Source: a virus
Virus record (IMG/VR): IMGVR_UViG_3300035034_000721
Coordinates: 1-54,225 of that record
Direction: 5' to 3' (one strand)
DNA: 54,225 bases
Shown: positions 3,104 to 18,999 of the stretch, piece by piece
Position numbering within the stretch: position 1 is the first letter of the stretch
Layout: the number at the start of each line of letters is the position of its first letter
The notes under the pieces: model-generated
Databases searched by the model: none
What the model was told of the DNA's origin: nothing
What the model saw: the letters and a program-made list of their open reading frames with translations, nothing else
Made by a program: the position numbers and the translations under genes

Positions 3104-3242
3104 GAAACCTCCTCCGAGTATGAAAACTGTAGATTATACCAGGTTATATCCTATTAATCGTGATTTTGACGACTACGATATGCCTGCTTATGAGTTTAGT
3201 ACTCCTGAGGAGTTATTAGTAACTAAAAACCTTGACTTATAG
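3093..3242 (+). CDS. small proline-rich hypothetical protein
   Basis: 49 residues starting MESKKPPPSMKTVDYTRLYP; ATG 3093 overlaps the previous gene by 11 bases, and a second possible start is ATG 3120. The TAG at 3240-3242 lies just after the -35 box of the next promoter. Function unknown. Confidence 0.45.
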   Translation: MESKKPPPSMKTVDYTRLYPINRDFDDYDMPAYEFSTPEELLVTKNLDL

Positions 3243-3260
3243 TAGTCGAGGCTTTATAAT
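3232..3260 (+). promoter_or_regulatory. sigma70 promoter with -35 box inside a hairpin
   Basis: TTGACT, 17 bp, TATAAT. CCTTGACT pairs with AGTCGAGG in the spacer (8 pairs, one T-G), so the -35 box is in one arm of an inverted repeat. Leader ATATACACATTAGAGAAAAAGGA gives the ribosome site of the gene at 3289. Confidence 0.85.
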
Positions 3261-3288
3261 ATATACACATTAGAGAAAAAGGAAAATT

Positions 3289-3942
3289 ATGCGAGATTAT
3301 AACCAGTATGTAAGAAAACTCGAAATCAAGGTACAAGAGCTTGTATCTGTAGTAAGTGCCCTTAAAAATGGTGACTACGTAAAGTTTCAGGAGAACTTAA
3401 TAGGTACGTTCACTAAAGCCCTTAACGATGCTAAAGATGAAAATACTGTGCTGGCTGTTAAGTTAGACGATGCACTTAAAGCTATAGATGTATTAATGAA
3501 AGCAACTGCTAATGTAGTTAGTGAAGATATGTATGATCACTTAGTATATGCTAATGCGATAACTGAGGATAGGTATGATGACGTATCAGCTGATTATCAA
3601 ACGCTGAGTAAGGCATACATAGAACAAGAGTTAAAACTTCGTGAGTATAAAGAGAAGTTGAAGCAGCGAGACATAGACGCAAAAGCACGCGGCATAATAG
3701 TAAGTTCGTTGCAGAGTCAAAAAGAATTTTTAGCAGAGAAGCTTCTAAACTCAACCGCTTCGTGTGATGAGCTTAGAAAATCTTTGTCAAAGAAAGAGGA
3801 GGACGCTAAGACTGTTGAAAGTAACCTAAAGGCGGAGTTAGAGATAGCCAAAGAAGAGATTACTACCTTAGAGAATAAATATGATACTCTGCGTAGTCAC
3901 TACATAGGAGAGTACTGTAACTCCAGAAAGCACGATATGTAG
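3289..3942 (+). CDS. long coiled-coil protein
   Basis: 217 residues, nearly all predicted coiled coil (heptads from about 5-40 and 110-205, e.g. ELEIAKEEITTLENKYDTL). First gene behind its own promoter with AAGGAAAATT before ATG. No enzymatic motif. Possibly a structural scaffold or host-protein binder; function unknown. Confidence 0.75.
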   Translation: MRDYNQYVRKLEIKVQELVSVVSALKNGDYVKFQENLIGTFTKALNDAKDENTVLAVKLDDALKAIDVLMKATANVVSEDMYDHLVYANAITEDRYDDVSADYQTLSKAYIEQELKLREYKEKLKQRDIDAKARGIIVSSLQSQKEFLAEKLLNSTASCDELRKSLSKKEEDAKTVESNLKAELEIAKEEITTLENKYDTLRSHYIGEYCNSRKHDM

Positions 3943-3986
3943 TGAATTTATATACATAAACCCCAGGTTTCTATAGATATATTATC

Positions 3987-4015
3987 TTGACAACTCTCGC
4001 TATTCACTGTATAAT
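3987..4015 (+). promoter_or_regulatory. sigma70 promoter for the SprT-like gene
   Basis: TTGACA, 17 bp, TATAAT, then the standard leader ATATATATTGAATAGAGAGAAGG leading to ATG 4047. Confidence 0.88.
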
Positions 4016-4046
4016 ATATATATTGAATAGAGAGAAGGCAGAAATT

Positions 4047-4601
4047 ATGAAATACGAAACAAAAAGCTTTGATAAAGCTGTAAGAGCAGAGCTTACTAGA
4101 GCTGGAGAAATGTACGGTCTTGAAGACCAGATGGCAAAAGTAACAATCGCTATTGACATTAAAGGTTTTCGCTGTGCAGGTCAAGCTTGCTGGGACACTA
4201 AGCGTCAGTACCGTATACGTTTTCACCCTGAGTATGTAGAAAATCATTATGCACAAATGGTAAAAGAAACTATCCCACACGAAGTGGCTCATATTGTGTG
4301 CATGATGCGTCCTGAACTTGGTAAAAACCATGATAGCGGTTGGAGAAAAGTGTTTAATACTCTAGGTTGTGGTTTAATACCTATTGAGCGTTGCCACAAT
4401 ATGTCTATCCAAGGAGCTGTTAGCTCTTCTGGAAGAAAAGTAAAAGCCAATGAGGTATACGTTACAAATGCTGGTGTTCGTGTAGAGTTAACTCCAATAC
4501 GTCATGGAAAGCTGCAACGTGGTACTGTAGAGTGGTATGAGTTCCGTGGCGAAGGAAAAATATTTGCAGCTGACCACGTTGGAACAGCTGGACAAGTTTA
4601 A
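4047..4601 (+). CDS. SprT/Spartan-like zinc metallopeptidase
   Basis: 184 residues. HEVAH at residues 78-82 is the HExxH zinc site with catalytic Glu79; the third ligand is His95 in HDSGW, the arrangement of the SprT family. Start chosen at ATG 4047 after GAGAAGGCAGAAATT; an upstream TTG at 3987 lies inside the promoter. SprT/Spartan proteases cut proteins crosslinked to DNA, so a role in clearing protein blocks from phage or host DNA is plausible. No C-terminal zinc-finger is seen; residues 120-184 form a small basic beta-rich region of unknown role. Monocistronic behind its own promoter or read through to 4633. Confidence 0.85.
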   Translation: MKYETKSFDKAVRAELTRAGEMYGLEDQMAKVTIAIDIKGFRCAGQACWDTKRQYRIRFHPEYVENHYAQMVKETIPHEVAHIVCMMRPELGKNHDSGWRKVFNTLGCGLIPIERCHNMSIQGAVSSSGRKVKANEVYVTNAGVRVELTPIRHGKLQRGTVEWYEFRGEGKIFAADHVGTAGQV

Positions 4602-4632
4602 CAAAAAATAGTTATGTTGAACGGAGAGATAG

Positions 4633-4866
4633 ATGAAAATTAAAAATTTAGATTTATACACCATATTATGCACAGTGTTGCCTGAAACAGAAGCAGAAGC
4701 TGAGCTTCAGCGAGTACTAGACTGTGAAGATGACCTAGGTTTTGGGTTTACAGATAGCATTAATTTAGGGGCAGCTTTTCAATGGTCTAATACTCCTCAA
4801 GGGTATCGCTTTTGGGATGATTTATATATAAAGATTGAGGATAAAAGGATACAATATGAAAACTAA
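4633..4866 (+). CDS. small protein with one TPQGYxFW module
   Basis: 77 residues, ATG after ACGGAGAGATAG. The C-terminal half carries AAFQWSNTPQGYRFWDDLY, the same module found twice in the next protein. Function unknown; similar FxWxxTPQGxxFW modules occur in small proteins of many phages (from memory). Confidence 0.75.
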   Translation: MKIKNLDLYTILCTVLPETEAEAELQRVLDCEDDLGFGFTDSINLGAAFQWSNTPQGYRFWDDLYIKIEDKRIQYEN

Positions 4867-5278
4867 AAATTACAAGTGTTTTAGAGGAATTGCTAATGTT
4901 ATAGGTAAAAAAGCCGCAAAATGTGAGCTGAAAGCAGTAGTACATAGTGGTGTCGATATATCTAGAGACTACAAACTACATGCAGCATTTGACTGGGGTA
5001 GAAGCCCTCAAGGGTTTAACTTTTGGGAAAACATAGATGATGGTATCTACCCTGCAGAGTTGTTAAAATGTTTTTCCGAGGTAGAGACTGTCCTAGGCAC
5101 TGTAGAAGCAGTAAGGCACTTAAGTAAAGTAGAAGAGTTATTAACTGAAGAATCTTTAATAGCTTCTTTTTGCTGGTCAGGCACTCCTCAAGGATATGAC
5201 TTTTGGCGATCTGTACATAATATAGCAATTATTCTGACTTCAGAAGTTACTGTAGATACACAAGGAAAAAACGCATGA
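4856..5278 (+). CDS. protein with two TPQGYxFW modules
   Basis: 140 residues from ATG 4856 (ribosome site AAAAGGAT; overlaps the previous gene by 11 bases). Modules at about 44-62 (AAFDWGRSPQGFNFWENID) and 107-125 (ASFCWSGTPQGYDFWRSVH), each preceded by a helix. With the previous gene this makes three copies in 650 bp. Probably internal duplication of a small protein-interaction unit; function unknown. Confidence 0.78.
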   Translation: MKTKNYKCFRGIANVIGKKAAKCELKAVVHSGVDISRDYKLHAAFDWGRSPQGFNFWENIDDGIYPAELLKCFSEVETVLGTVEAVRHLSKVEELLTEESLIASFCWSGTPQGYDFWRSVHNIAIILTSEVTVDTQGKNA

Positions 5279-5577
5279 AGTATGAAGTAATCGCCACGGG
5301 TGTGGTTGGTATCTACATTGATAAGGTAGATGATGTAATTCTACTGGCTTTAGATAACAACTCCCGAAGAATGTTTCCAAAAGATCAGCTCCGACGTATA
5401 TTTGAAGTCGGAGACGAAGTACTCATAAGTGGTGTATTTAAGATTACCGAGGCAAACGAAGTACCCCATAGATATAGGGTAAGAAGTTCAAACTCGTTAG
5501 ATTCTCACACTTTTCATGGCAGCATGTTGATACATAGACCTAGGGGATACCATGTTAACAGCAATTATCATTCTTAG
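5275..5577 (+). CDS. hypothetical beta-rich protein
   Basis: 100 residues, ATGA overlap with the previous gene. Strand-rich N-terminus (YEVIATGVVGIYIDKVDDVILLAL) then VGDEVLISGVF, suggestive of a small OB/SH3-like barrel, but no family is recognised. Confidence 0.7.
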   Translation: MKYEVIATGVVGIYIDKVDDVILLALDNNSRRMFPKDQLRRIFEVGDEVLISGVFKITEANEVPHRYRVRSSNSLDSHTFHGSMLIHRPRGYHVNSNYHS

Positions 5578-5815
5578 TATATTATGTTTGGTACTTCTAG
5601 TAAGTTTTTTAGTTATGTTAGTTTTTTGGTCGATTGAACTTTCAAGAGCTAACATGTGCTCGACTGGTTGGGAGAAGGAATCGCTAAAACTAAGGTGTGC
5701 TCGTAACATTATGTGGCATATAACTGGACTCTCACTACCCCACAGCCAGGAAAATTTAACTAAAATGGAGGTAGAGAGTGAAAAAAATGGCAAAGATAAC
5801 ACACGCTCCACATGA
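5552..5815 (+). CDS. small membrane-anchored protein
   Basis: 87 residues with one strong transmembrane helix at about 3-28 and a hydrophilic tail. ATG after TAGGGGATACC; overlaps the previous gene by 26 bases. Function unknown. Confidence 0.65.
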   Translation: MLTAIIILSILCLVLLVSFLVMLVFWSIELSRANMCSTGWEKESLKLRCARNIMWHITGLSLPHSQENLTKMEVESEKNGKDNTRST

Positions 5816-5846
5816 AAAGTTCCAAAAGTTTGGGGAAAATAAGTAA
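5778..5846 (+). CDS. possible 22-residue basic peptide
   Basis: GTG 5778 is placed five bases after GGAGGT, then 22 codons (MKKMAKITHAPHEKF...) to TAA 5844-5846. The good ribosome site is the main argument; length makes it tentative. Confidence 0.35.
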   Translation: MKKMAKITHAPHEKFQKFGENK

Positions 5847-5921
5847 ATTTACTCAAACTAAATTATACTCTTAAATAAAATCTCCAGCAATTGTAGTTAT
5901 AGTATAACGCGCAAATAAGGC

Positions 5922-5950
5922 TTGACATTTAGATGTCGAGCCTTTATAAT
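5922..5950 (+). promoter_or_regulatory. sigma70 promoter with -35 box inside a hairpin
   Basis: TTGACA, 17 bp, TATAAT. AAGGCTTGACA pairs with TGTCGAGCCTT across a 6-base loop (11 pairs). Compared with the copy at 6313 the fourth and fifth pairs are compensated (GC instead of CC on the left arm, matched on the right). Confidence 0.88.
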
Positions 5951-5978
5951 ATATACATACTGAAGAAAGGAGATAATT

Positions 5979-6197
5979 ATGAAAATGATAGAAGAAGTTC
6001 AAGATTTGCTCGAAGACAGGAGTAGAGAGCTACAAGAGGCAGAGCAGTCAAATACAGATTTGCTTAGAGAGGTACAGACCATGACTAATAAGTTTTTAGT
6101 GGCTCAACTAAAGCTAGCTAAGCGAGAATCACATATAGAAGGCTTAGAAAGAGCTTTAAACAATATTAGACTCCACTTGGACTCAGTAGAGCTATGA
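5979..6197 (+). CDS. short coiled-coil protein
   Basis: 72 residues, ATG after AAGGAGATAATT; heptads across the whole length (RSRELQEAEQSNTDLLREVQ...). Function unknown. Confidence 0.7.
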   Translation: MKMIEEVQDLLEDRSRELQEAEQSNTDLLREVQTMTNKFLVAQLKLAKRESHIEGLERALNNIRLHLDSVEL

Positions 6198-6286
6198 TGA
6201 CAGCACTAGTAATACTTATAAATGGAGAGTTAACAAAGAAAACTACCCTGGCTGAGATACGTAAGAGAGTCCTAGCAAGTATTTAA
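6194..6286 (+). CDS. 30-residue hypothetical peptide
   Basis: ATG 6194 overlaps the previous stop (ATGATGA); product MMTALVILINGELTKKTTLA.... ends TAA 6284-6286. Tentative because of length. Confidence 0.4.
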   Translation: MMTALVILINGELTKKTTLAEIRKRVLASI

Positions 6287-6306
6287 AAGAGTAGGTAACT
6301 AACATA

Positions 6307-6353
6307 AAAGCCTTGACATTTCGGTGTCAAGGCTTTATAATATCTGTATATTA
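6307..6353 (+). repeat. dispersed promoter cassette, copy 1
   Basis: 47-bp block from AAAGCC to TGTATATTA containing the palindromic promoter. One mismatch to copy 2 at 18953-18999. Confidence 0.9.
6313..6341 (+). promoter_or_regulatory. sigma70 promoter in a perfect 11-bp inverted repeat
   Basis: TTGACA, 17 bp, TATAAT. AAGCCTTGACA pairs perfectly with TGTCAAGGCTT, loop TTTCGG, and the right arm is followed at once by TTATAAT. The block 6307-6353 is repeated at 18953-18999 with one difference. As RNA the element would look like an intrinsic terminator for readthrough transcripts. Confidence 0.9.
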
Positions 6354-6369
6354 AATAAAAGGAAAAAAT

Positions 6370-7173
6370 ATGTTAAGAATAGGCTCACAGGTAAAGCTAG
6401 CTTTAACAGAACAGAATTGCCCAACTAGAAACAGTCGGTTATCAGGTGTGATAAAAGATTATACGTGGGATAAAGGCTTATACTATTTTATTGTTAAGTG
6501 GGAAGATGGGTCGTTACTAGGTGGGTACAAAAAAGAAGACTTAGTATTCGCAGACTTAGAAGAAAGAGTACAGAGTTTGCATTGTGACGTTCAGGTACTT
6601 ACGGAAGCCCATAATATGCTAGTAGGCAAGGTAAACAAAACTACAGGAGACCATATGAAAGTGCTAAACTTTAATAAAAGATTATTTCAGAGTACAGAAC
6701 TTTATACTCTGTACGGGCGTAAGACAATAGTACCTAAGGTAGTGTATATAGACATGGATGATACTCTAGTACAGTTCACTAAGCTTTATAGTGAACTAAA
6801 AATAGAGTCTCCAGAGCTTTTGTATCCCCACTCATTAAAAGGTTTTTTCCGTAACTTAGAGCCTGTAGAGAACGCTCAAAATGCCTGGAGAATGCTAATT
6901 ACTTCAGAAGGTTACAAGCCTTATATACTCACAGCCCCAAGCATCAAAAACATACATAGTTTTAGTGAAAAAGCTGAAAGTGTGAAGCGTCTATTCGGAG
7001 AAACGGCCTTAGATAGGCTTATAGTGTCTGGGCATAAGCATTTGCTAAAGGGTGACATATTAATAGATGACCAAGCAACTGGAAAAGGTCAAGATATGTT
7101 TGATGGAGATTTTATACACTTTGGGTCTAAAGAATACCCAGATTGGTTAAACGTAATGCAACGCTTAATGTAA
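6370..7173 (+). CDS. 5'(3')-deoxyribonucleotidase-like HAD phosphatase with extra N-terminal domain
   Basis: 267 residues. The HAD phosphatase starts near 121: YIDMDDTL has nucleophile Asp128 and acid Asp130, ILTAP near 183 supplies motif II, and ILIDDQ near 231 the motif III/IV acids, as in the NT5C nucleotidase family that removes phosphate from deoxynucleoside monophosphates. Residues 1-60 look like a small KOW/Tudor-like barrel (VKLAL...VKWEDGS) and 62-95 a short helix; this extension is not part of the usual enzyme of about 180-200 residues. Role: probably dNMP turnover for the phage nucleotide pool. Confidence 0.8.
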   Translation: MLRIGSQVKLALTEQNCPTRNSRLSGVIKDYTWDKGLYYFIVKWEDGSLLGGYKKEDLVFADLEERVQSLHCDVQVLTEAHNMLVGKVNKTTGDHMKVLNFNKRLFQSTELYTLYGRKTIVPKVVYIDMDDTLVQFTKLYSELKIESPELLYPHSLKGFFRNLEPVENAQNAWRMLITSEGYKPYILTAPSIKNIHSFSEKAESVKRLFGETALDRLIVSGHKHLLKGDILIDDQATGKGQDMFDGDFIHFGSKEYPDWLNVMQRLM

Positions 7174-7182
7174 GGAGTAATT

Positions 7183-7365
7183 ATGTCGCATTTAGCAAAA
7201 GAACATTTAGATAAAGTAGTACAACAAAAAAGAAAAGAAACTTTACTTAAACTTAGACAAGCTATTCAAGATTCTGAGCTTTACTGCTTAGTAAGAACAG
7301 AAAACGATATAGTTATAACAGGCGTAGTTGACTCTGAATACGGATTTGTTTTGACAGAAGATTAA
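7183..7365 (+). CDS. small hypothetical protein
   Basis: 60 residues, ATG after AAGGAGTAATT. Helical basic first half (QQKRKETLLKLRQAI), beta second half. Function unknown. Confidence 0.7.
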   Translation: MSHLAKEHLDKVVQQKRKETLLKLRQAIQDSELYCLVRTENDIVITGVVDSEYGFVLTED

Positions 7366-7444
7366 TTTATAAAAATAACATAAAAATGTGAAGTAGCTCC
7401 ACATAACTTTAAAAGTAGCTACAACTATTAAGAGGTAAAACCTT

Positions 7445-7585
7445 ATGAGTATTGAAGAAGCAATTATAGAATTAAAGAAAAAGTGCGCTAGAGCTAGCTG
7501 CTCTGCAGACGCATTAAGATTTTCTCAAGCAGCACTTAATTTAGCTCACGTACACTCAGTTTTGTTAAGTACTGAAAAAAGCTAG
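7445..7585 (+). CDS. small helical protein (SADALRFSQAALNLA type)
   Basis: 46 residues, MSIEEAIIELKKKC...SADALRFSQAALNLAHVH; ATG after AGAGGTAAAACCTT. Similar short helical proteins with an A/S-D-A-x-x-F/Y-x-QAALN core are common in phages (from memory). Function unknown. Confidence 0.65.
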   Translation: MSIEEAIIELKKKCARASCSADALRFSQAALNLAHVHSVLLSTEKS

Positions 7586-7591
7586 TATACT

Positions 7592-7618
7592 ATGCGCTGC
7601 TTACACAGGCGCATTTTT
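7592..7618 (+). terminator. intrinsic terminator
   Basis: ATGCG CTG ... CAG (G) CGCAT followed by TTTTT: eight pairs with one bulged G, loop CTTACA. It lies just after the small gene ending at 7585. Confidence 0.65.
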
Positions 7619-7698
7619 AATGTACTACGAATAAGTTACTAGTATGAAAACAGAAAAAAGTATAAAAATTTTACTTTATAAGAAATAAGGAGGCATGT

Positions 7699-8235
7699 AT
7701 GTCACAAGTACTAATAATTTCAGATACGCATTTTGGGCACAATAACATCTGTAAGTTTCGCCCCGAGTTTGAAACCGTAGAACAGCATGATATTACTATA
7801 TACAGCAATATAATGAGTATGCTTCGAAAGAATGATACACTATGGCTGTTAGGAGACTGCTTTTTTACAGAAGATAGCTATGAGTACCTAAGAGACTTTT
7901 CTGTTGCATGCTCACAAGTAAACATGACTATAGGTAACCACGATACGGACTCTAACCAGAAAATGCGGTTGCTGCATGAAAATTTTCACTTATTTAACAA
8001 AGTAGGAGGTTTATTTAAGACCAGTGGAGCCTGGCTATCGCACGCTCCACTGCATCCTGCAGAACTTCGTGGAAAGGTAAACGTTCATGGACACGTTCAC
8101 ACAGCCTCTCTACCTGATAAAAACTACTATAATGTTAGCTGTGAGAATGTAAGATATTTTCCAGTTAATCTACACCAACTATTAATAAATCCGAGTGAGT
8201 ACTTGGTTGACTATGGAGACCCTTATGGAGTATAG
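7699..8235 (+). CDS. calcineurin-like metallophosphoesterase
   Basis: 178 residues. Metal motifs in order: SDTHFGH (8-14), GD near 52, GNHD near 78, SHAPLHP near 114 and HGHVH near 130. Size and motif spacing match compact YfcE/MJ0936-type phosphodiesterases; substrate (nucleic acid ends or cyclic nucleotide) cannot be told. ATG after AAGGAGGCATGT. Confidence 0.85.
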   Translation: MSQVLIISDTHFGHNNICKFRPEFETVEQHDITIYSNIMSMLRKNDTLWLLGDCFFTEDSYEYLRDFSVACSQVNMTIGNHDTDSNQKMRLLHENFHLFNKVGGLFKTSGAWLSHAPLHPAELRGKVNVHGHVHTASLPDKNYYNVSCENVRYFPVNLHQLLINPSEYLVDYGDPYGV

Positions 8236-8311
8236 CTTACTTTTTATAGCTGCTTTGCTGCTACTTATATGTGTAATTTTATTTGAAGGAGATGATGATG
8301 ACTCAGCGTGA
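8225..8311 (+). CDS. 28-residue single-pass membrane peptide
   Basis: MEYSLLFIAALLLLICVILF then EGDDDDSA: one transmembrane helix and an acidic tail. ATG 8225 follows GGAGACCCTT, and the frame overlaps both neighbours (8235 and 8298). Tiny, but the composition and ribosome site argue it is made. Confidence 0.5.
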   Translation: MEYSLLFIAALLLLICVILFEGDDDDSA

Positions 8312-8558: not shown

Positions 8559-8737
8559 AAATATTAGCTTATTACTGGCTGTTAACAGCGTTTATTGACT
8601 TGCTTTTAGGATCACTTATTACATCATATACTTCGAGTATTATGTTTGTTATAGCCGCAGTAGCTTGTTTAATTATACATCAAGGTATACAGGATTTACT
8701 TGAGGGTTTAGAGAAGCTACACGTTAATAAGCCTTGA
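8555..8737 (+). CDS. small membrane protein
   Basis: 60 residues with two hydrophobic segments (4-24 and 28-45), then a charged tail. Function unknown. Confidence 0.65.
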   Translation: MKILAYYWLLTAFIDLLLGSLITSYTSSIMFVIAAVACLIIHQGIQDLLEGLEKLHVNKP

Positions 8738-9944: not shown

Positions 9945-9980
9945 AGCAGTAGAAAACCCTACGTATAGTGAATAAAAACC

Positions 9981-10009
9981 TTGACATTTGTGTGTTAAGG
10001 TTTTATAAT
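9981..10009 (+). promoter_or_regulatory. sigma70 promoter with -35 box inside a hairpin
   Basis: TTGACA, 17 bp, TATAAT. AAACCTTGACA pairs with TGTTAAGGTTT (one G-T), loop TTTGTG. The outer G-C pair of the 6313 copy is an A-T pair here, a compensated change. Confidence 0.88.
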
Positions 10010-10039: not shown

Positions 10040-10267
10040 ATGGAAAGTTTTATATTATTAAACGAAATAGGTGAGTTTCAAACTGTCGGCACGAGTTTAG
10101 GGCACGGTGGGCAAAAAACATATGTTAACAGCCACAGAAACATTAACGCAGCTACAGTGTTTAACCCATACTCATACAGTGATGCAGTTAAATCGTGCAA
10201 AGACTTAAAGAACTATATTCAAGTCCCTGCATACGAAACCCGTGTAGTTACTATAGGACAGAAATAA
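10040..10267 (+). CDS. hypothetical protein
   Basis: 75 residues, ATG after AAGGAAGATTT. Core TYVNSHRNINAATVFNPYSYSDAV. Function unknown; first of four closely packed genes. Confidence 0.65.
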   Translation: MESFILLNEIGEFQTVGTSLGHGGQKTYVNSHRNINAATVFNPYSYSDAVKSCKDLKNYIQVPAYETRVVTIGQK

Positions 10268-13506: not shown

Positions 13507-14556
13507 ATGCAAAAACAAGTAGCAAGCGTTTCAGGAGGCAGAACCTCCCACTACATGATACATGCTCTCCTAGAGAAGTTTTCTAGAGAAAATGTAGATT
13601 TTGTCTTTTGTGACACGGGTGCTGAACATAAAAATACTTACGAGTTTATACGAAAAACAGAGGAACACTTTAACATACATATACAATGTATAAGACTGTT
13701 TATGCCAAAACCCGAAGGTGAGGGAGGCGAGTACATAAAGCTTACTTCTGAGCAGATTGGTCTTAACTATAAAGCTTTCAATAGCTTAATGGAAAAATAT
13801 GGCAGACCTTATGTACCTTCAGGTAAGTTCTGTACCAACCAAATGAAAACCAATATATATAAAAAATACTGCAACGACACTTATGGGGAAGGTAACTATA
13901 CAACTTGGATTGGTTATAGGTCTGACCCAAAAGACTCTTCTAGGGCCTGGGGACAGTCACTTTCAGGAACCTTAACTAGGTGGTTTAATATCCCACAGGT
14001 AGACCAAGGAGACTTTTACAAAAACTGTAACCTTAAGTTGGAGGTATCTATAGGCACGCTCATAGACTATATCGCTGAGAATAAGCTAAACCCCACTTCT
14101 CAGTCTGAGTGGCGTAAGATTATGAAGATAGTTGATCGTGTTATGAAAAATAAACAGATAGGGTATAGGTTTTTATTTGAAATATCCGACTTTGAGGAGG
14201 AAGATATACTGAAGTGGTGGGGGTCTCAAGAGTTTGACTTAGATATACCAAACCATTGTGGAAATTGCGTATTTTGCATAGAAAAGAGTGTAAATCAACT
14301 AAGTTACTTATGTCATACCCAACCAGAATACGCGTCAGAGTGGGTAATACAACTAGACAGTAATAAAATCCCAAATAAAGATAGATTACTAGGTGAAAAG
14401 GTTATGTATAGAGATGGAGCTGCTAAACTGACCTTTGAAGAGATAAGAAATAATGCACTTAGCAAGCCTAAAGAGTACTGGGAGGCCAGGGTGTATAGAG
14501 AAACTAAGTCTAACCCTTGTGCACAGAACTCGTGCGAATCTTATACAGTAGACTAA
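13507..14556 (+). CDS. PP-loop (PAPS reductase/ATP pyrophosphatase-like) protein
   Basis: 349 residues. The N-terminal SGGRTS (9-14) is the PP-loop, in a variant of the usual SGGKDS; FVFCDTGAEH near 33-42 is the second conserved strand. A CxxC pair in HCGNCVFC near 251-258 could hold a metal or cluster or bind zinc. Members reduce PAPS, adenylate a substrate, or thiolate tRNA (TtcA-type enzymes have both a PP-loop and CxxC motifs). Its place between tRNA genes makes tRNA modification an attractive but unproven idea. ATG after AAGAGAATTT. Confidence 0.75.
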   Translation: MQKQVASVSGGRTSHYMIHALLEKFSRENVDFVFCDTGAEHKNTYEFIRKTEEHFNIHIQCIRLFMPKPEGEGGEYIKLTSEQIGLNYKAFNSLMEKYGRPYVPSGKFCTNQMKTNIYKKYCNDTYGEGNYTTWIGYRSDPKDSSRAWGQSLSGTLTRWFNIPQVDQGDFYKNCNLKLEVSIGTLIDYIAENKLNPTSQSEWRKIMKIVDRVMKNKQIGYRFLFEISDFEEEDILKWWGSQEFDLDIPNHCGNCVFCIEKSVNQLSYLCHTQPEYASEWVIQLDSNKIPNKDRLLGEKVMYRDGAAKLTFEEIRNNALSKPKEYWEARVYRETKSNPCAQNSCESYTVD

Positions 14557-14562
14557 ATAATA

Positions 14563-14608
14563 CGCCTCCCAAGCCTCTACGGGTATGCTTAAATTGAGGA
14601 GGCTTTTT
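14563..14608 (+). terminator. possible terminator after the PP-loop gene
   Basis: GCCTCC (14563-14568) pairs with GGAGGC (14598-14603), followed by TTTTT; the long loop can form AAGC/GCTT inside. It is upstream of tRNA-Arg, so complete termination is not expected. Confidence 0.5.
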
Positions 14609-14613
14609 ACAAC

Positions 14614-14689
14614 ACAGGCGTAGCTCAACTGGAAGAGCATAGTATTACGAATGCTAAGGTTGTAGGTTCGATTCCTACCGTCTGTGCCA
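14614..14689 (+). tRNA. tRNA-Arg(ACG)
   Basis: 76 nt. Acceptor ACAGGCG/CGTCTGT, D arm GCTC/GAGC, anticodon arm TAGTA-TTACGAA-TGCTA, T arm GTAGG-TTCGATT-CCTAC, CCA encoded. A34 would need deamination to inosine by the host to read CGC/CGA. Confidence 0.92.
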
Positions 14690-14697
14690 CATTCTTC

Positions 14698-14726
14698 TTG
14701 ACTTCTTAATCTTAACCTTGTATAAT
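14698..14726 (+). promoter_or_regulatory. sigma70 promoter inside the tRNA array
   Basis: TTGACT, 17 bp, TATAAT, leader ATATATATTGAATAGAGAAAGGA. Confidence 0.88.
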
Positions 14727-14756
14727 ATATATATTGAATAGAGAAAGGAACAGAGA

Positions 14757-14930
14757 ATGACAATTTATCAAGTTAAAGGCTTTAAGAATAGGATTCACTA
14801 TATCAAAGAGTTAGCGTTAGAGCACGGAATACCAGTAAGCTCAGTGATAGAAGTTGCTAATTTGTTAGGAAAAGATGAAGACTTTGATGGTCTTGTATCT
14901 ATGGTACAAGAATACAGTGGGCAACTATAA
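14757..14930 (+). CDS. 57-residue hypothetical protein
   Basis: ATG after AAAGGAACAGAGA: MTIYQVKGFKNRIHYIKELALEHGIPVSS..., ending TAA 14928-14930. Helical with a possible HTH (ALEHGIPVSSVIEVANLLG). Directly precedes tRNA-Leu. Function unknown. Confidence 0.65.
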   Translation: MTIYQVKGFKNRIHYIKELALEHGIPVSSVIEVANLLGKDEDFDGLVSMVQEYSGQL

Positions 14931-14931
14931 T

Positions 14932-15008
14932 ACAAGTGTGGCGAAATTGGCATACGCACTGGTTTTAGAAACCAGGTTTTGAGAGTTCGAGTCTCTCCCT
15001 TTGTACCA
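14932..15008 (+). tRNA. tRNA-Leu(TAG) lacking the long variable arm
   Basis: 77 nt. The 5' half (GTGGCGAAATTGGCATACGC) is typical of bacterial Leu tRNAs, anticodon arm CTGGT-TTTAGAA-ACCAG (TAG), T arm GAGAG-TTCGAGT-CTCTC, A discriminator, CCA encoded. Only GTTTT lies between the anticodon and T stems, where class II Leu tRNAs have 10 or more bases. One acceptor mismatch (T-C). Confidence 0.8.
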
Positions 15009-15012
15009 AATA

Positions 15013-15092
15013 CGGGTTAATTTACTATTAACTAGTAGTAGCTGGTGTCTTCTATGATAGAACAGAGAGTAGTTTCTCTGAATTGATACCCG
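15013..15092 (+). ncRNA. cloverleaf-like RNA without tRNA identity
   Basis: CGGGT (15013-15017) pairs with ACCCG (15088-15092), enclosing three hairpins: GTTAAT/ATTAAC, TTCTA/TAGAA and CAGAGA/TCTCTG. The overall shape and the 80-nt length are tRNA-like, but there is no T-loop motif or CCA. Confidence 0.4.
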
Positions 15093-15214
15093 ATAACAGT
15101 AGTTCGGTAACGCAATTACCGTTAGCACAAAGTGGTGGAGTACTCAGGTATGTTGAAGCTATGCGTGCATTTGCACTATTATAGTTTCGAAGAACACGCT
15201 GTTCGAAATTCTAT
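15093..15214 (+). ncRNA. run of three hairpins between the cloverleaf-like RNA and tRNA-Ile
   Basis: CGGTAA-CGCAA-TTACCG (about 15104-15120), GTGC-ATTT-GCAC (15165-15176), and a 36-nt hairpin TATAG-TTTCGAA...TTCGAAA-TT-CTATA (15180-15215) that abuts tRNA-Ile. No coding frame seen. Could be a processing or spacer structure. Confidence 0.4.
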
Positions 15215-15290
15215 ACTGTCTTAGTTCAGTAGGTAGAGCAGTCGACCGATAATCGACAGGTCTCTGGTTCAAGCCCAGAAGACAGTACCA
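15215..15290 (+). tRNA. tRNA-Ile(GAT)
   Basis: 76 nt. Acceptor ACTGTCT/AGACAGT, anticodon arm GTCGA-CCGATAA-TCGAC, T arm CTGG-TTCAAG-CCAG region, A discriminator, CCA encoded. Confidence 0.92.
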
Positions 15291-15296
15291 AATTTA

Positions 15297-15439
15297 GGGT
15301 GTGTCCCTGACGTAATAGTGGTAAAATGCACCACTCGTGACGATAATACGAAAAAACGTGTTTAGGTTGAGGGGACTCATAATTTCCATACTAAACATAG
15401 GTCTGGTTAGCCTACTTGCAAGTAACCACAAGTTTCAAT
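15297..15439 (+). ncRNA. structured non-coding segment before tRNA-Val(CAC)
   Basis: Contains GACG..AGTGGT-AAAATGC-ACCACT-CGT (15310-15338), GTTTAG/CTAAAC (15360-15365 with 15391-15396), and GGTTA...TAACC (about 15404-15426). GTCCC at 15303-15307 could also pair with GGGAC at 15372-15376. No ORF or tRNA recognised. Confidence 0.4.
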
Positions 15440-15510
15440 GTCTTGTTCATCTAATTGGTTAAGCCCCTCCTCACAGGGAGGTAATAAGAGTTCGACTCTC
15501 TTACAAGACA
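15440..15510 (+). tRNA. tRNA-Val(CAC)-like, no encoded CCA
   Basis: 71 nt. Acceptor GTCTTGT/ACAAGAC, discriminator A, T arm AAGAG-TTCGACT-CTCTT. The anticodon arm CCTCC-TCACAG-GGAGG has a six-base loop, or a seven-base loop with a C-A mismatch; T33 then puts CAC as anticodon. It lacks the CCA that nearly all other tRNAs here carry. Confidence 0.6.
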
Positions 15511-15573
15511 GCTGCGGGTACAGGTAAATACAATCCCATCTTCGGACGGATGTTCCCTTACCTGCGGCAACCA
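15511..15573 (+). ncRNA. 63-nt stem-loop RNA ending in CCA
   Basis: GCTGCGGGTA (15511-15520) pairs with TACCTGCGGC (15559-15568), ten pairs with two wobbles, followed by AACCA. Inside is CATC-TTCGGACG-GATG. It starts right after the CCA-less tRNA and ends with CCA before CTT, like a tRNA of this array, but has no D or T arm. Confidence 0.5.
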
Positions 15574-15578
15574 CTTAA

Positions 15579-15655
15579 CAGGATGTAGCGCAGCCAGGTA
15601 GCGTAGCTCGTTTGGAACGAGGCGGTCGTAGGTTCAAATCCTTCCATCCTGACCA
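15579..15655 (+). tRNA. tRNA-Pro(TGG)
   Basis: 77 nt. Acceptor CAGGATG/CATCCTG, anticodon arm GCTCG-TTTGGAA-CGAGG, T arm GTAGG-TTCAAAT-CCTTC (one mismatch), A discriminator, CCA encoded. Confidence 0.9.
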
Positions 15656-15662
15656 AATTTAA

Positions 15663-15879
15663 TGTAGGGTTCGAACCCCTTGCGAGCTTTAGAGGTCGTA
15701 CTCGACTAGGATGGTGACGGAGGCATTAATAGTTGCTGTAAAGGCCCGCAAAGCCCTAAGCAACGCAAACCAAGTCCTTTCCAGCTCGTCTTAGTAGCTC
15801 TAAGGCATGGAGGGCAAAATGGCGAAACGAATACTCCTGAGCTAAAGGGTAGTAGGGTACAAACCTCGCAAGTCCTACA
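15663..15879 (+). ncRNA. about 217-nt multibranched RNA candidate
   Basis: Two coaxial long-range helices close it: TGTAGG (15663-15668) with CCTACA (15874-15879), and CTTGCGAG (15679-15686) with CTCGCAAG (15865-15872); between the 5' arms is GGGTTCGAACCC. Internal hairpins: GTTGCT/AGCAAC (15732-15737 with 15759-15764) with GGC/GCC inside, CTTAG-TAGCT-CTAAG, and GCTC..GGAG/CTCC..GAGC. More GC-rich than its surroundings. No RNase P, tmRNA or group I core motifs were found. Confidence 0.55.
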
Positions 15880-15924
15880 CAAAGTAGTTTAGCGACTGCA
15901 TTGTAGGGCGGATCTAATTTAAAT

Positions 15925-15997
15925 GTTGGAGAGATACTGGGTATCGGCAAGATTCCAAACCTTCGCCTGTAGAGTTCGATTCTCTACTCCTTCGCCA
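15925..15997 (+). tRNA. tRNA-Trp(CCA)-like, degenerate
   Basis: 73 nt with encoded CCA. T arm TAGAG-TTCGATT-CTCTA is standard. The acceptor GTTGGAG/CTCCTTC has two T-T mismatches, the anticodon stem around TTCCAAA has only three good pairs, and GATAC-TGG-GTATC replaces a normal D arm. Anticodon read as CCA. Functional status uncertain. Confidence 0.55.
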
Positions 15998-16001
15998 CTT
16001 T

Positions 16002-16074
16002 AAGATGTCTGTAGAGTGTACCCTGAGGTCACTTGCAGGAAAACGGTAGTACCGTTTCACCCTACAAACATCTT
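16002..16074 (+). ncRNA. 73-nt three-way-junction RNA candidate
   Basis: AAGATGTCTGTAGAGTG (from 16002) pairs with CACCCTACAAACATCTT (to 16074) at 15 of 17 positions; inside are CCTG/CAGG and AAACGGT-AGT-ACCGTTT. Tandem position after a CCA and tRNA-like length, but no tRNA motifs. Its 3' arm overlaps the -35 box of the next promoter (CTTGACT). Confidence 0.6.
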
Positions 16075-16101
16075 GACTTATTTAAGAAAAGACTGTATAA
16101 T
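16073..16101 (+). promoter_or_regulatory. sigma70 promoter inside the tRNA array
   Basis: TTGACT, 17 bp, TATAAT, leader ATATATATTGAATTGAGAAAGAG. The -35 box starts inside the 3' arm of the preceding structured element. Confidence 0.87.
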
Positions 16102-16145
16102 ATATATATTGAATTGAGAAAGAGAATAAATAGAAGGTTAAGTTG

Positions 16146-16185
16146 GTCGTGATTGGTGCTCTGGGTTCGACTCCCAGGCACGACA
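16146..16185 (+). ncRNA. tRNA-like minihelix (acceptor plus T arm only)
   Basis: GTCGTG (16146) pairs with CACGAC (to 16184), and CTGGG-TTCGACT-CCCAG is a perfect T arm stacked on it. The 9-base ATTGGTGCT replaces the D and anticodon arms. No CCA follows. It is either the stump of a deleted tRNA or a real minihelix RNA, the first element after its promoter. Confidence 0.55.
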
Positions 16186-16275
16186 TAGTAAGTCATAATG
16201 AAGGTAGTACTGCCCAACCATGACTCTATTGCTAGGCCAAGCTCAGCTTTTCCTTTCTATTTTATTTTTAACGTC

Positions 16276-16348
16276 AGTATAGCACAGTTGGTAGTGCAGT
16301 TCACTTGTAATGAAAAGGTCGTAGGTTCGAAGCCTACTGCTGGCACCA
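16276..16348 (+). tRNA. tRNA-Thr(TGT)
   Basis: 73 nt. Acceptor GTCAGTA/TGCTGGC (two wobbles), anticodon arm GTTCA-CTTGTAA-TGAAA, T arm GTAGG-TTCGAAG-CCTAC, CCA encoded. Confidence 0.9.
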
Positions 16349-16363
16349 CTTTTAAGGATTATT

Positions 16364-16864
16364 ATGCAGCAGATAATAGAAACAGTACGTAGCTTAATCT
16401 CAGGGTATAGTAGTATACACATTATAGAAGGGAAATTGTATGTACCTTTAACAGATGAAAAAGAGCTTGTACCTGAGATGTTACTAAACTCGTTAAAGTA
16501 TCTTGAAGATCATGGACAGCATAGATCCGTCATTAATAGTATGATAAACTTTATGACCTTTGGTTATAACACACCTCGCCGTAGTGGGAAAACTACTGCT
16601 TTAAGAGCTATTAAAGAAATGTGTGTACAGAGCTTCGGGTATAGAGAAATCGACGCTAATGCTAAAGCTACAAGCAGGAATAACGCAGAAGATTTTTATT
16701 TTTTAGAAAAAGAGGGCAAGCTTATATTTCTAGTATCTGATATGGGGGAGGAGTTATTTAAGAGGTACACAGGTCAAAGCATACATCGTAACTTTACAGT
16801 ACTTAGAGGTTTTAGGCATAGTCTTACACCTCTAGTAATTAAATTAAACACTATAAAGGACTAA
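16364..16864 (+). CDS. hypothetical protein with a Walker A-like motif
   Basis: 166 residues, ATG after AAGGATTATT. NTPRRSGKTTALRAI near 66-80 resembles a P-loop of helicase/ATPase type; LIFLVSDMGEE near 120 could be a Walker B strand. Too short for a motor protein; could be a small nucleotide-binding regulator. It lies between tRNAs and the NADAR gene. Confidence 0.65.
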   Translation: MQQIIETVRSLISGYSSIHIIEGKLYVPLTDEKELVPEMLLNSLKYLEDHGQHRSVINSMINFMTFGYNTPRRSGKTTALRAIKEMCVQSFGYREIDANAKATSRNNAEDFYFLEKEGKLIFLVSDMGEELFKRYTGQSIHRNFTVLRGFRHSLTPLVIKLNTIKD

Positions 16865-16865
16865 C

Positions 16866-17306
16866 ATGATTACAGAGTTTAAAGATGAAAATCGCTTTCT
16901 ATCAAACTTCTCCCCTTGTACTGTTGAATATGCTGGGTTGTCCTTCCGCTCTGTAGAGCACGCTTTTGTAGCAGCTAAAACAGAGGATAGAGGAGAGCAA
17001 GCACATGTGCAAACTCTAACTGCGGGGCAAGCTAAAAGATTTGGCAGAAACCTTAATCTTCGCCCTAGCTGGGATTTGATGAAAATAGAAGTAATGAGAG
17101 GCTTGCTAGAGCAAAAGTTCGAGTTGCCTGAGTACAAAAAATTACTAATCGCCACGGGTTCTCAGCAAATAGTGGAGGGTAATACCTGGGGAGACACCTT
17201 CTGGGGTATGGTATTTAATAAAGACGGTGAGCTAGGGGAAGGAAACAACAATTTAGGTCTGATATTAATGGAAATCAGAGAGAATTTAGTAGAAAATAAC
17301 GCTTGA
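16866..17306 (+). CDS. NADAR/YbiA-family N-glycosidase-like protein
   Basis: 146 residues. The family signature is clear: NRFLSNFSPCTVEYAGL (9-25), SVEHAFVAAKT (29-39), and NTWGDTFWGMVF near 116-127 followed by NNLGLILMEIR. YbiA acts on riboflavin intermediates, and NADAR proteins have been reported to remove ADP-ribose from guanine in DNA. Located in the tRNA array one base after the previous gene; ends four bases before a new promoter. A role against DNA ADP-ribosylation (DarT) is inference. Confidence 0.85.
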   Translation: MITEFKDENRFLSNFSPCTVEYAGLSFRSVEHAFVAAKTEDRGEQAHVQTLTAGQAKRFGRNLNLRPSWDLMKIEVMRGLLEQKFELPEYKKLLIATGSQQIVEGNTWGDTFWGMVFNKDGELGEGNNNLGLILMEIRENLVENNA

Positions 17307-17331
17307 CAACTTAAGCCTAACCCTGTATAAT
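17303..17331 (+). promoter_or_regulatory. sigma70 promoter inside the tRNA array
   Basis: TTGACA, 17 bp, TATAAT, overlapping the stop of the NADAR gene; leader ATATATATTGAATAGAGAGAAGGA. Confidence 0.88.
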
Positions 17332-17363
17332 ATATATATTGAATAGAGAGAAGGAAAGAATAT

Positions 17364-17486
17364 ATGTGGCGATTATTATATAAAGGCAAAATAGTGGACA
17401 TTAGTTGTAGTTTTCAGTTACTTCATGATATAGCAGCTAGATACCCACACTGGAAAGAAGAAGATTGGGAAGTTGTTCCCAATTAA
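17364..17486 (+). CDS. 40-residue hypothetical peptide
   Basis: ATG after AAGGAAAGAATAT: MWRLLYKGKIVDISCSFQLL..., TAA 17484-17486. Sits between promoter and tRNA-Lys. Function unknown. Confidence 0.55.
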   Translation: MWRLLYKGKIVDISCSFQLLHDIAARYPHWKEEDWEVVPN

Positions 17487-17509
17487 GAGATTTATTAAAG
17501 TTTAGTTTA

Positions 17510-17586
17510 GGGCCGCTAATTCAACTGGTTAGAATATCCGCCTTTTAAGCGGGAGGTTCCTGGTTCGAATCCAGGGCGACCCACCA
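17510..17586 (+). tRNA. tRNA-Lys(TTT)
   Basis: 77 nt. Acceptor GGGCCGC/GCGACCC (one C-A mismatch), anticodon arm TCCGC-CTTTTAA-GCGGG, T arm CCTGG-TTCGAAT-CCAGG, CCA encoded. Confidence 0.9.
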
Positions 17587-17638
17587 AGTTAAACCTCTCA
17601 TATAAGGCAATTAGAGCTGGATTATCATGTTTAATAAA

Positions 17639-17713
17639 ATTCCGATAGCTCAAGGGTAGAGCGTCCGACTCATAATCGGCAGGTTCCTAGTTCAAATCTA
17701 GGTCGGAGTACCA
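17639..17713 (+). tRNA. tRNA-Met or Ile2 (CAT)
   Basis: 75 nt. Acceptor ATTCCGA/TCGGAGT, D arm GCTC/GAGC, anticodon arm CCGA-CTCATAA-TCGG, T arm CCTAG-TTCAAAT-CTAGG, CCA encoded. Elongator Met or lysidine-modified Ile. Confidence 0.9.
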
Positions 17714-17719
17714 AACAGT

Positions 17720-17797
17720 CGCGGGTTAGTGTTCTGGTTGAACACATCGGTCTCATAAGCCGAAATGAGAGTGGTTCGATTCCACTACCCGCTACCA
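17720..17797 (+). tRNA. tRNA-fMet-like initiator (CAT)
   Basis: 78 nt. Starts CGCGGG and ends CCCGCTACCA, so the first acceptor pair is C-T and unpaired, the hallmark of bacterial initiators. Anticodon arm TCGGT-CTCATAA-GCCGA keeps two of the three G-C pairs of initiators, T arm AGTGG-TTCGATT-CCACT. Confidence 0.82.
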
Positions 17798-17804
17798 CTT
17801 TACT

Positions 17805-17856
17805 GGGGAGAGGTTAATTTCTCTTAGTTGGTTGCTTTTGTCTTCAACCTCTCCCC
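17805..17856 (+). ncRNA. 52-nt hairpin with perfect 11-bp stem
   Basis: GGGGAGAGGTT (17805-17815) pairs with AACCTCTCCCC (17846-17856). The 30-base loop contains TTAGTTGGTTG, like the loop of the hairpin at 12844. It occupies a position between two tRNAs and has no U-run. Confidence 0.55.
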
Positions 17857-17860
17857 CACT

Positions 17861-17935
17861 GCTCCCGTCATCTAATGGTTAGGATATCGCCCTTTCAAGG
17901 CGAGTATACGAGTTCAAGTCTCGTCGGGAGTACCA
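17861..17935 (+). tRNA. tRNA-Glu(TTC)
   Basis: 75 nt. Acceptor GCTCCCG/CGGGAGT, anticodon arm CGCC-CTTTCAA-GGCG, T arm ACGAG-TTCAAGT-CTCGT, CCA encoded. Confidence 0.92.
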
Positions 17936-17941
17936 TTTTAT

Positions 17942-18016
17942 ACTCGATTAGCTTAGTGGCAAAGCAGTGGTTTTACATACCAAAGATCGTTAGTTCGAAC
18001 CTAACATCGAGTACCA
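17942..18016 (+). tRNA. tRNA-Val(TAC)
   Basis: 75 nt. Acceptor ACTCGAT/ATCGAGT, anticodon arm TGGT-TTTACAT-ACCA, T arm GTTAG-TTCGAAC-CTAAC, CCA encoded. Confidence 0.92.
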
Positions 18017-18103
18017 GTTTTGGTTCATTACCAAAAAACCATTTATCTTAAAGCGCTTGTATGGTTGGAGCAGTTAAAGTCTGTAACAAGCCAGCAAATT
18101 TTA
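18017..18103 (+). ncRNA. structured spacer between tRNA-Val and tRNA-Asn
   Basis: TTTTGGT-TCATT-ACCAAAA hairpin, then AACCAT/ATGGTT and GCTTGT/ACAAGC as alternative longer pairings. No ORF or tRNA. 87 nt, again about one tRNA long. Confidence 0.35.
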
Positions 18104-18179
18104 GGGGGTTTAGCTCAGTGTGTAGAGCGAGGAGCTGTTAACTCTTAGGTCAGTGGTTCAAATCCATTAACCCCCGCCA
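18104..18179 (+). tRNA. tRNA-Asn(GTT)
   Basis: 76 nt. Acceptor GGGGGTT/AACCCCC, D arm GCTC/GAGC, anticodon arm AGGAG-CTGTTAA-CTCTT, G discriminator, CCA encoded. Confidence 0.93.
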
Positions 18180-18186
18180 CTTTATT

Positions 18187-18271
18187 GGGTGTATAGACAC
18201 GTATGGATCGTGTGCGGCCTGTAACGTCGTTCCGCAAGGCATTTTGGGTTCGATTCCTAATACACCCACCA
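18187..18271 (+). tRNA. tRNA-Tyr(GTA)
   Basis: 85 nt, class II. Acceptor GGGTGTA/TACACCC, anticodon arm GCGGC-CTGTAAC-GTCGT, variable arm with TCCGCAAGGCA, T arm TTGGG-TTCGATT-CCTAA, CCA encoded. Confidence 0.9.
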
Positions 18272-18275
18272 ATTT

Positions 18276-18350
18276 AGAGAGTTAGCTGAGACGGATTAGC
18301 ATGGGTTTGAAGAACCTAATAGGTTGGATCGTTACCAACACTCTCTACCA
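18276..18350 (+). tRNA. tRNA-Phe(GAA)
   Basis: 75 nt. Acceptor AGAGAGT/ACTCTCT, anticodon arm TGGGT-TTGAAGA-ACCTA, T stem GTTGG/CCAAC, CCA encoded. The T loop is ATCGTTA instead of the usual TTCRANN. Confidence 0.87.
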
Positions 18351-18358
18351 ATTTTAAC

Positions 18359-18431
18359 GCGAGTACGATCAAGGTGATCCGCCAGCCTTCCAAGCTGTGT
18401 AGTGAGGGTTCGATTCCCTCTACCCGCTCCA
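18359..18431 (+). tRNA. tRNA-Gly(TCC)
   Basis: 73 nt. Acceptor GCGAGTA/TACCCGC (one A-C mismatch), anticodon arm CAGC-CTTCCAA-GCTG, T arm GAGGG-TTCGATT-CCCTC, T discriminator, CCA encoded. Confidence 0.9.
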
Positions 18432-18437
18432 ATTTTA

Positions 18438-18512
18438 GCGCACTTGACAGAGTGGTAATGTAGCGGTTTGCAATCCCGTTTTTCGTTGGTTCGATTCCAA
18501 CAGTGTGCTCCA
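18438..18512 (+). tRNA. tRNA-Cys(GCA)
   Basis: 75 nt. Acceptor GCGCACT/AGTGTGC, loop TTGCAAT (anticodon GCA) with a T-C mismatch closing the loop, T arm GTTGG-TTCGATT-CCAAC, CCA encoded. Confidence 0.88.
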
Positions 18513-18538
18513 CTTTTAAGTCATAACCCAAGTGTTGG

Positions 18539-18609
18539 TAAGTGGTGAAGGCAAGCTAGTAGCGGATAAATACATGAGCCTTCTTAAAGAGTCTGTGACC
18601 GCCCACTTA
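18539..18609 (+). ncRNA. 71-nt RNA candidate closed by a 7-bp stem
   Basis: TAAGTGG (18539-18545) pairs with CCACTTA (18603-18609), and one base further in GAAGGC (18547-18552) pairs with GCCTTC (18578-18583). Acceptor-stem-like length but no T arm, D arm or CCA. Confidence 0.45.
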
Positions 18610-18617
18610 ATTTATTA

Positions 18618-18705
18618 CATTGAAGAGTGCTCCGCCATTAGCTATGGTAATCTTTGGTAAGGTGCGCGCAGTAGAGGTTCGATTCCTGTGGATCACTCCT
18701 CAATG
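18618..18705 (+). ncRNA. tRNA-like element with extended acceptor helix
   Basis: CATTGAAGAGTG (18618-18629) pairs with CACTCCTCAATG (18694-18705), 11 of 12. A T-loop TTCGATT (within GTAGAGG..CCTGT) is present, and the rest folds poorly; a loop CTTTGGTAA could be a Pro-type anticodon. CTCA, not CCA, stands at the tRNA 3' position. Probably a decayed tRNA or a tRNA-derived RNA. Confidence 0.45.
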
Positions 18706-18742
18706 CAATTTAATAATTTTTAGCAGTAGAAGGAAGTAAAGC

Positions 18743-18928
18743 ATGGAAATATTGGTAGAGCTAGGCAGGCAATATACAGATGTAGTATCAGGATTTACAG
18801 GGAAAGCGCTATCACGATGTGAGCATCTTTTCGATGCTACACAAGTAAGGTTAGTTAGTAGTACGTTAGGTAGAGATGGTCAGCCTGTAAGTGAGTGGAT
18901 TACAGAAGGACAACTAAAGGAAGTATAA
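18743..18928 (+). CDS. hypothetical protein
   Basis: 61 residues, ATG after AGAAGGAAGTAAAGC. Helix then strand; function unknown. First gene after the tRNA array. Confidence 0.65.
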   Translation: MEILVELGRQYTDVVSGFTGKALSRCEHLFDATQVRLVSSTLGRDGQPVSEWITEGQLKEV

Positions 18929-18952
18929 ACTCTCTTTATAGGCAGTAGTAAT

Positions 18953-18999
18953 AAAGCCTTGACATTTCGGTGTCGAGGCTTTATAATATCTGTATATTA
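18953..18999 (+). repeat. dispersed promoter cassette, copy 2
   Basis: Same 47-bp block as 6307-6353 with A to G in the right arm (GTCGAGG), which leaves a T-G pair in the hairpin. The flanking genes differ, so only the promoter was copied. Confidence 0.9.
18959..18987 (+). promoter_or_regulatory. sigma70 promoter in an 11-bp inverted repeat
   Basis: TTGACA, 17 bp, TATAAT. AAGCCTTGACA pairs with TGTCGAGGCTT (one T-G), loop TTTCGG. The 47-bp block is a near-identical copy of the promoter at 6307-6353. Confidence 0.9.

Follow-up and report, generated by a model that had tools for sequence, protein, structure and literature searches.

The window analyzed here, a 54,225-base fragment of a T5-like phage (IMG/VR record IMGVR_UViG_3300035034_000721), encodes a DNA polymerase that shares 43-44% identity with its counterparts in T5-like phages infecting Aeromonas, Vibrio, and Proteus, together with DnaB-like and D10-like helicases, SbcCD, ribonucleotide reductase, and 18 tRNAs identified with ARAGORN. 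Among the small genes that lie before, within, and just after the tRNA cluster are five promoters (3232, 5922, 6313, 9981, and 18959) in which the original prediction had placed TTGAC in the paired left arm of a hairpin. All five were present at these positions. On the evidence of the DNA (hairpin, promoter consensus and spacing, covariation of the arms, strand-asymmetric wobble pairing, and gene context), each of these elements probably combines an intrinsic (Rho-independent) terminator and a sigma70 promoter in a single fused unit. Unrelated marine phages, most of them related to T4-like cyanophages, show this architecture as well.

In all five elements, the stem extends to TATAAT and the right arm stops just before TTTATAAT, which forms the tail and contains three to four consecutive T residues (Table 1). 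A simple terminator scan takes only those at 3230 (+) and 6336 (-). The elements share flanks and differ in their arms: element 2 has GGC/GCC in place of GCC/GGC, and in element 4, G-C is replaced by A-U and G-U. Element 1 is weaker, with its shorter stem, a 6-base loop, and an A.C mismatch in an outer pair; a small open reading frame (ORF) upstream, with an ATG at 3120 assigned by eye, terminates within the hairpin loop (TAG, 3240-3242). Element 5 lies 30 bases past the ORF stop at 18928. As the palindrome of element 3 is symmetric, and its minus strand (window 6301-6341) carries both TTGACA-18-TATGTT and a hairpin with TTTTATGTT, this element is also terminator-like and promoter-like in the reverse direction and may function both ways.

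Table 1. Fused hairpin-promoter elements of the window and the ORFs that follow them
Feature	Coordinates	Strand	Details
Fused hairpin-promoter 1	3229..3260	+	stem 3230-3251, 8 contiguous pairs; -35 TTGACT 3232-3237; -10 TATAAT 3255-3260
Fused hairpin-promoter 2	5917..5950	+	12-pair stem 5917-5944; loop TTAG; -35 5922-5927; -10 5945-5950
Fused hairpin-promoter 3	6307..6341	+	13-pair stem 6307-6336; loop TTCG; -35 6313-6318; -10 6336-6341
Fused hairpin-promoter 4	9975..10009	+	13-pair stem 9975-10004; loop TTGT; -35 9981-9986; -10 10004-10009
Fused hairpin-promoter 5	18951..18987	+	stem 18951-18984, 14-15 pairs; loop TTCG; -35 18959-18964; -10 18982-18987
ORF downstream of element 1	3289..3942	+	217 amino acids
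ORF downstream of element 2	5979..6197	+	72 amino acids
ORF downstream of element 3	6370..7173	+	267 amino acids; no relative in viral_contigs
ORF downstream of element 4	10040..10267	+	75 amino acids
ORF downstream of element 5	19017..19211	+	64 amino acids

To compare these elements with the other promoters of the window, we collected exact matches to TTGAC-N(17-19)-TATAAT. There were 22, all with N18 (21 on the + strand and one on the - strand), against a chance expectation of 0.16. With equal flanks, the minimum free energy (MFE) of folding was -11.4 to -21.0 kcal/mol for the five elements and 0 to -8.8 kcal/mol for the other 17 promoters. When flank and spacer were shuffled with the -35 and -10 boxes held fixed, an MFE of -11 or lower was reached in 0.48% of 44,000 shuffles, and the binomial p for strong hairpins at five of 22 promoters is ~6.5e-8. 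A TT precedes TATAAT in 5/5 elements and in 0/17 of the remaining promoters (1/26,334 by hand calculation). Nine TTTATAAT sites occur in the window, and the five that are preceded by a hairpin are exactly the five elements; a scan with CTTGAC-N17-TTATAAT likewise returned the five named sites and nothing else. A strict scan for a hairpin plus a T-tract found no classical + strand terminator before 21,610 and several after it.

In most of the hairpin-free promoters (3987, 11331, 14698, 16073, 17303, 23201, and others), the base preceding TATAAT is G (CTGTATAAT), and ATATATATTGAATAGAGA occurs downstream of several. They constitute a second, distinct promoter class.

The original prediction had also listed compensating changes among the five copies, and this list proved correct. 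In an alignment of the copies, 96.7% of cells pair, compared to 26.7-55% when the partner is slid by one to three columns. Of the 12 pairs, three are altered on both sides (CG/GC, GC/AU, and AU/UA), and a further three on a single side. Since 11/500 column shuffles matched the covariation of the alignment, and the copies at 6313 and 18959 are near-identical so that the five are not independent, covariation within the window by itself is modest evidence.

We therefore turned to viral contigs outside the window. Two scans fixed the boxes and TTT before ATAAT and left pairing free, and a third required pairing of the -35 box only; the totals of all three are lower bounds. The scan with the 17-base spacer of the window (CTTGAC-N16-TTTATAAT) gave at least 113 sites, of which 20 fold at -12 or lower (shuffles, 0.35%) and 14 have a stem of at least nine pairs that includes the -35 box. 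With an 18-base spacer there were at least 120 sites; at least seven of these fold at -14 or better, five of them with the -35 box in the left arm. The scan that required -35 pairing allowed total lengths of 25-35, and 112 among at least 120 sites had a length of 30, corresponding to a 17-base spacer, indicating that promoter geometry and hairpin are both held. A scan with the exact loop and arm layout of the window gave zero matches. In one external set, 112/119 loci were examined, the up to seven left out having probably already been taken with the hairpin-biased set; sites near contig ends and identical sites were dropped from the folding, covariation, wobble, context, and flank analyses.

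The external sites allowed us to examine base pairs that no search pattern had fixed. At 86 distinct spacer-17 sites, outer pairs 1-4 were paired in 86, 83, 84, and 83 sites, compared to permuted means of 44.8, 72.1, 41.4, and 55.4. The non-Watson-Crick combinations at the five outer pairs of these sites were 14 G-U and 2 A-C. The same asymmetry was found in 15 external hairpins in which the right arm was wholly unpatterned: the transcribed strand has 33 G-U and 2 A-C combinations, with the G of TTGAC opposite U in 11/15 and the A of TTGAC never opposite C. Such a bias would be natural for RNA made from this strand and has no evident reason in a DNA-binding protein, and so makes a hairpin acting as RNA more likely than a protein operator. 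Pairing was also retained at one orthologous locus, immediately upstream of a tRNA-Ala gene, at which 31 sites carry the element. Of 15 ungapped sequences from this locus, nine have A-U at the pair beside the -35 part of the stem, five have U-A, and one has G-C. In the other class of sequences, the loop is longer by one base and the stem shorter by one pair, so that the spacer remains 17.

The elements also differ from hairpin-free sites in gene context. Distinct spacer-17 sites fall between ORFs in 82/86 cases with a hairpin and 68/89 without, and among these intergenic sites the upstream ORF is co-directional in 76/82 and 46/68, respectively (p = 1.1e-4), an excess that is supportive rather than decisive, since the non-hairpin group certainly holds chance matches. 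At external sites, the median distance from stop codon to -35 box is 29 bases. In a further set of loci (L266, L275, L340, L326, L264, L325, L044, and L118), a terminator-like hairpin carries the -35 box within its loop or close to it instead of in the arm; at L266 the hairpin with the -35 box in its loop is followed by a T8 tail. These variants are consistent with fusion of a terminator and a promoter.

Among the larger external loci, three have matches in T4-like cyanophages. The cultured Prochlorococcus phages P-SSM2 and P-SSM5 contain two elements each, those of P-SSM2 being at 48,611 and at 235,158, the latter between a gene end at 235,126 and a gene start at 235,282. Of the eight cyanophage records that we checked, six lack hairpin elements of the TTTATAAT type; in S-SM2 and Syn9, a looser pattern revealed weaker hairpins. 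When the tRNA-rich locus L152 was compared with phages by blast, the tRNA part alone matched, among the matches listed. Searching with element 5 by blastn gave eight matches, including Vibrio phages VAP7 and Ceto. In VAP7, the hairpin shares the stem core GACATTTCGGTGTC with element 5, lacks a -35 box, and ends in a tail of five T residues. In Ceto (L349 12001-12060; near 25,269), a hairpin ending in GGCTTTATAATATC also lacks a -35 box, and a separate promoter lies ~15-20 bases further on. These two hairpins resemble plain terminators and could represent the origin of the fused form.

Together, the hairpin with its U-rich tail and the sigma70 boxes in the same DNA suggest how one ~35-base-pair (bp) element could end one unit and begin the next. 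RNA polymerase arriving from the upstream gene would transcribe the palindrome, the RNA would fold into a hairpin of 8-15 bp, and the short U-rich tail UUUAUAAU would release part or most of the complexes. As duplex DNA, the same stretch would offer TTGACA, in the left arm, and TATAAT, in the tail, to the sigma70 holoenzyme at the optimal 17-bp spacing, and the next transcript would begin a few bases beyond the tail. Several features expected of the two parts are present: the hairpins contain GC and are stable (MFE -11.4 to -21.0), the wobble counts from the 15 external hairpins point to action in RNA of the transcribed strand, and the spacing of the -35 and -10 hexamers lies within the 16-18 bp range of sigma70 promoters (17 bp in 112 of at least 120 external sites). 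Termination and its efficiency, initiation, and use by the host RNA polymerase early in infection are what we infer from these features.

The original prediction had left open whether the palindrome was an RNA terminator combined with a promoter or an operator for a dimeric regulator. The former is supported, indirectly, by the strand-asymmetric wobble, the placement after co-directional genes, the T-run found only in the hairpin class, and the T8-tailed variant; the operator fits poorly, because the arms vary freely with pairing kept and A.C mismatches are nearly absent. An operator is still the main rival: the repeat would be bound by a dimeric regulator, encoded by the phage or by the host, that represses or activates the promoter. 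The repeat overlaps the -35 box, which is a classical repressor position, and genome matches from SAR86 and Psychromonas share a near-constant palindrome, ACTTGACTAAAWTAGTCAGGTAT, over the -35 box and followed by TTTATAAT (L375, L385, L394, L409, L416, L419, and other SAR86 loci; L351 in Psychromonas). This palindrome presumably resembles an IscR site. The scan of Genome_contigs that included these operator-like SAR86 sites gave 120 matches, with lengths between 25 and 35 and with 36 folding at -12 or lower, and none of these matches were used as support for termination. In the phage copies, however, no recognition sequence is kept: we found no conserved half-sites, as the outer arms vary with compensation; the arm bases that belong to the -35 box do not change. 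Loops are variable, the elements follow co-directional genes, and a preference for G-U far above A-C is not expected of a DNA site. We consider an operator quite improbable.

The hairpin could instead be an mRNA 3'-end or processing element that stabilizes read-through or processed RNA, with the promoter overlap no more than incidental packing. Its short U-tract and its position close behind stop codons would suit such a role, which we nonetheless judge very improbable, since the overlap does not look incidental (the 17-base spacer is kept in 112 of at least 120 sites) and the T-run is restricted to the hairpin class in the window. Perfect short inverted repeats inside a promoter also recall a cruciform or single-strand hairpin acting at the DNA level, as for the virion RNA polymerase of phage N4. 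Promoters of the N4 type are hairpins without sigma70 boxes, whereas here a full -35/-10 pair is kept at 17 bp, 17 sister promoters in the window do without a hairpin, and the wobble is strand-asymmetric; such a mechanism is extremely improbable. Equally hard to credit is an accidental palindrome spread by duplication within this genome. The near identity of the copies at 6313 and 18959 and the shared flanks of all five are what copying would produce, but it does not account for compensatory changes between copies or recurrence in unrelated phages, and chance and copying are both disfavored by the outer-pair covariation at 86 sites and by the shuffle statistics for the window.

Several observations weigh against a fused terminator and promoter. 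The U-tract, UUUAUAAU, is weak, with three to four consecutive U residues, and termination may therefore be partial. The first 20 kb also contain nine further + strand promoters that lack a hairpin of this type, and separation of operons is therefore not general. The SAR86 palindromes show that repeats over a -35 box can be operators. Three members of the 15-hairpin wobble set (L341, L250, and L301) are doubtful, and, as the external sites are partly related, the permutation and binomial values overstate their independence. A relaxed search of six T5-like genomes (Gary across 120,000 of its 128,602 bases) yielded 136 promoters, of which ten were flagged and only one resembles the element, a borderline 8-bp case without a T-run in Aeromonas phage TS3 at 107747. 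The original prediction had named, as the outcome that would speak against it, related phages that keep the promoter and lose the pairing. What we found goes partly in that direction: the element is absent from ten other cultured records (nine T5-like/Demerecviridae-type and one Ackermannviridae), which offer no orthologous promoters for comparison, but at one orthologous cyanophage-type locus both the promoter and the pairing are kept.

Other searches concerned the surroundings of the elements. In Rfam, tRNAs were the sole matches for window 1-20000, and the same held for three external loci. A protein search of viral_contigs with the window ORFs at 19220, 6370, and 13507 returned zero relatives. 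Relatives of the window DNA polymerase were present at nine viral_contigs loci, where the replication-region promoters lack a hairpin, as they do in the window; these carry no weight for or against the fused arrangement. A 1288-amino-acid ORF on the minus strand (50289-54155) has no PHROG match at E 0.001.

We also considered whether the element might act as a polymerase relay, in which release is followed by sigma-dependent restart at the adjoining promoter, and as a one-piece connector for cassette swaps. Recycling of polymerase to nearby promoters after termination has been documented in vitro, according to excerpts of two reports (PMC6978380, PMC6978322). Among 524 near-identical element pairs, 213 are alike in one flank but not in the other, although some of this may reflect rapid evolution of the flanks, and the pairs do not represent independent cases. 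The element often coincides with a break in synteny, as between L145 and L235, and in one example flank identity is 0.93 upstream and 0.27 downstream. The sequences of P-SSM2 (L517 1594) and P-SSM5 (L524 1594) agree as far as about TATAATGTTT at 48,611, beyond which they differ. We put the combined relay and connector role forward tentatively and regard it as unlikely.

If the elements do fuse a terminator with a promoter, ~35 bp would encode opposite instructions at two levels, RNA and duplex DNA, and selection would maintain both at once. Operon annotation would change in abundant ocean phages, where promoters and terminators are predicted separately. Genetic design would gain a compact, naturally occurring part, and the element would be a ready-made substrate for experiments on whether RNA polymerase, once freed by a terminator, restarts at the promoter beneath it.

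In filamentous phage, the gene III promoter near the central terminator is a possible precedent. We found no account, in the open-licence literature, of phage terminators with a -35 box in one arm. Promoters and terminators are predicted or mapped in PMC3037559, PMC1524935, PMC7698491, PMC10134795, and PMC2784084, and the excerpts of these papers, like those of PMC6978380 and PMC6978322, do not mention a terminator-promoter fusion. Within that literature, as represented by such excerpts, the parts (terminators, sigma70 promoters, and adjacent pairs of them) are known and the dual-coded fusion is apparently undescribed.

Compared to known systems, the elements resemble intrinsic terminators in having a GC-containing hairpin of 8-15 bp after a stop codon, an A-rich left side, and a short, weak U-rich tail; at L266, a variant whose loop holds the -35 box has a T8 tail. 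They differ in that the left arm doubles as the -35 box and the tail as the -10 box, with only three to four U residues before A. With the host sigma70 early promoters of T4-like and T5-like phages they share TTGACA-17-TATAAT, as do the 17 hairpin-free promoters of the window, but the arms of the element are paired and TATAAT is preceded by TT, not mostly by G. An operator over the -35 box that we take to be IscR-like also has an inverted repeat with TTGAC, and the SAR86 sites match by the same pattern; there, however, the sequence is nearly constant and the arms show no free covariation. Further parallels are Vibrio phage Ceto and, as far as the excerpted source goes, the adjacent t97/p98 terminator-promoter pair of Kayvirus (PMC7698491), in which a single gap likewise ends one unit and starts the next, but with two adjacent elements in place of the one dual-coded stretch found here.

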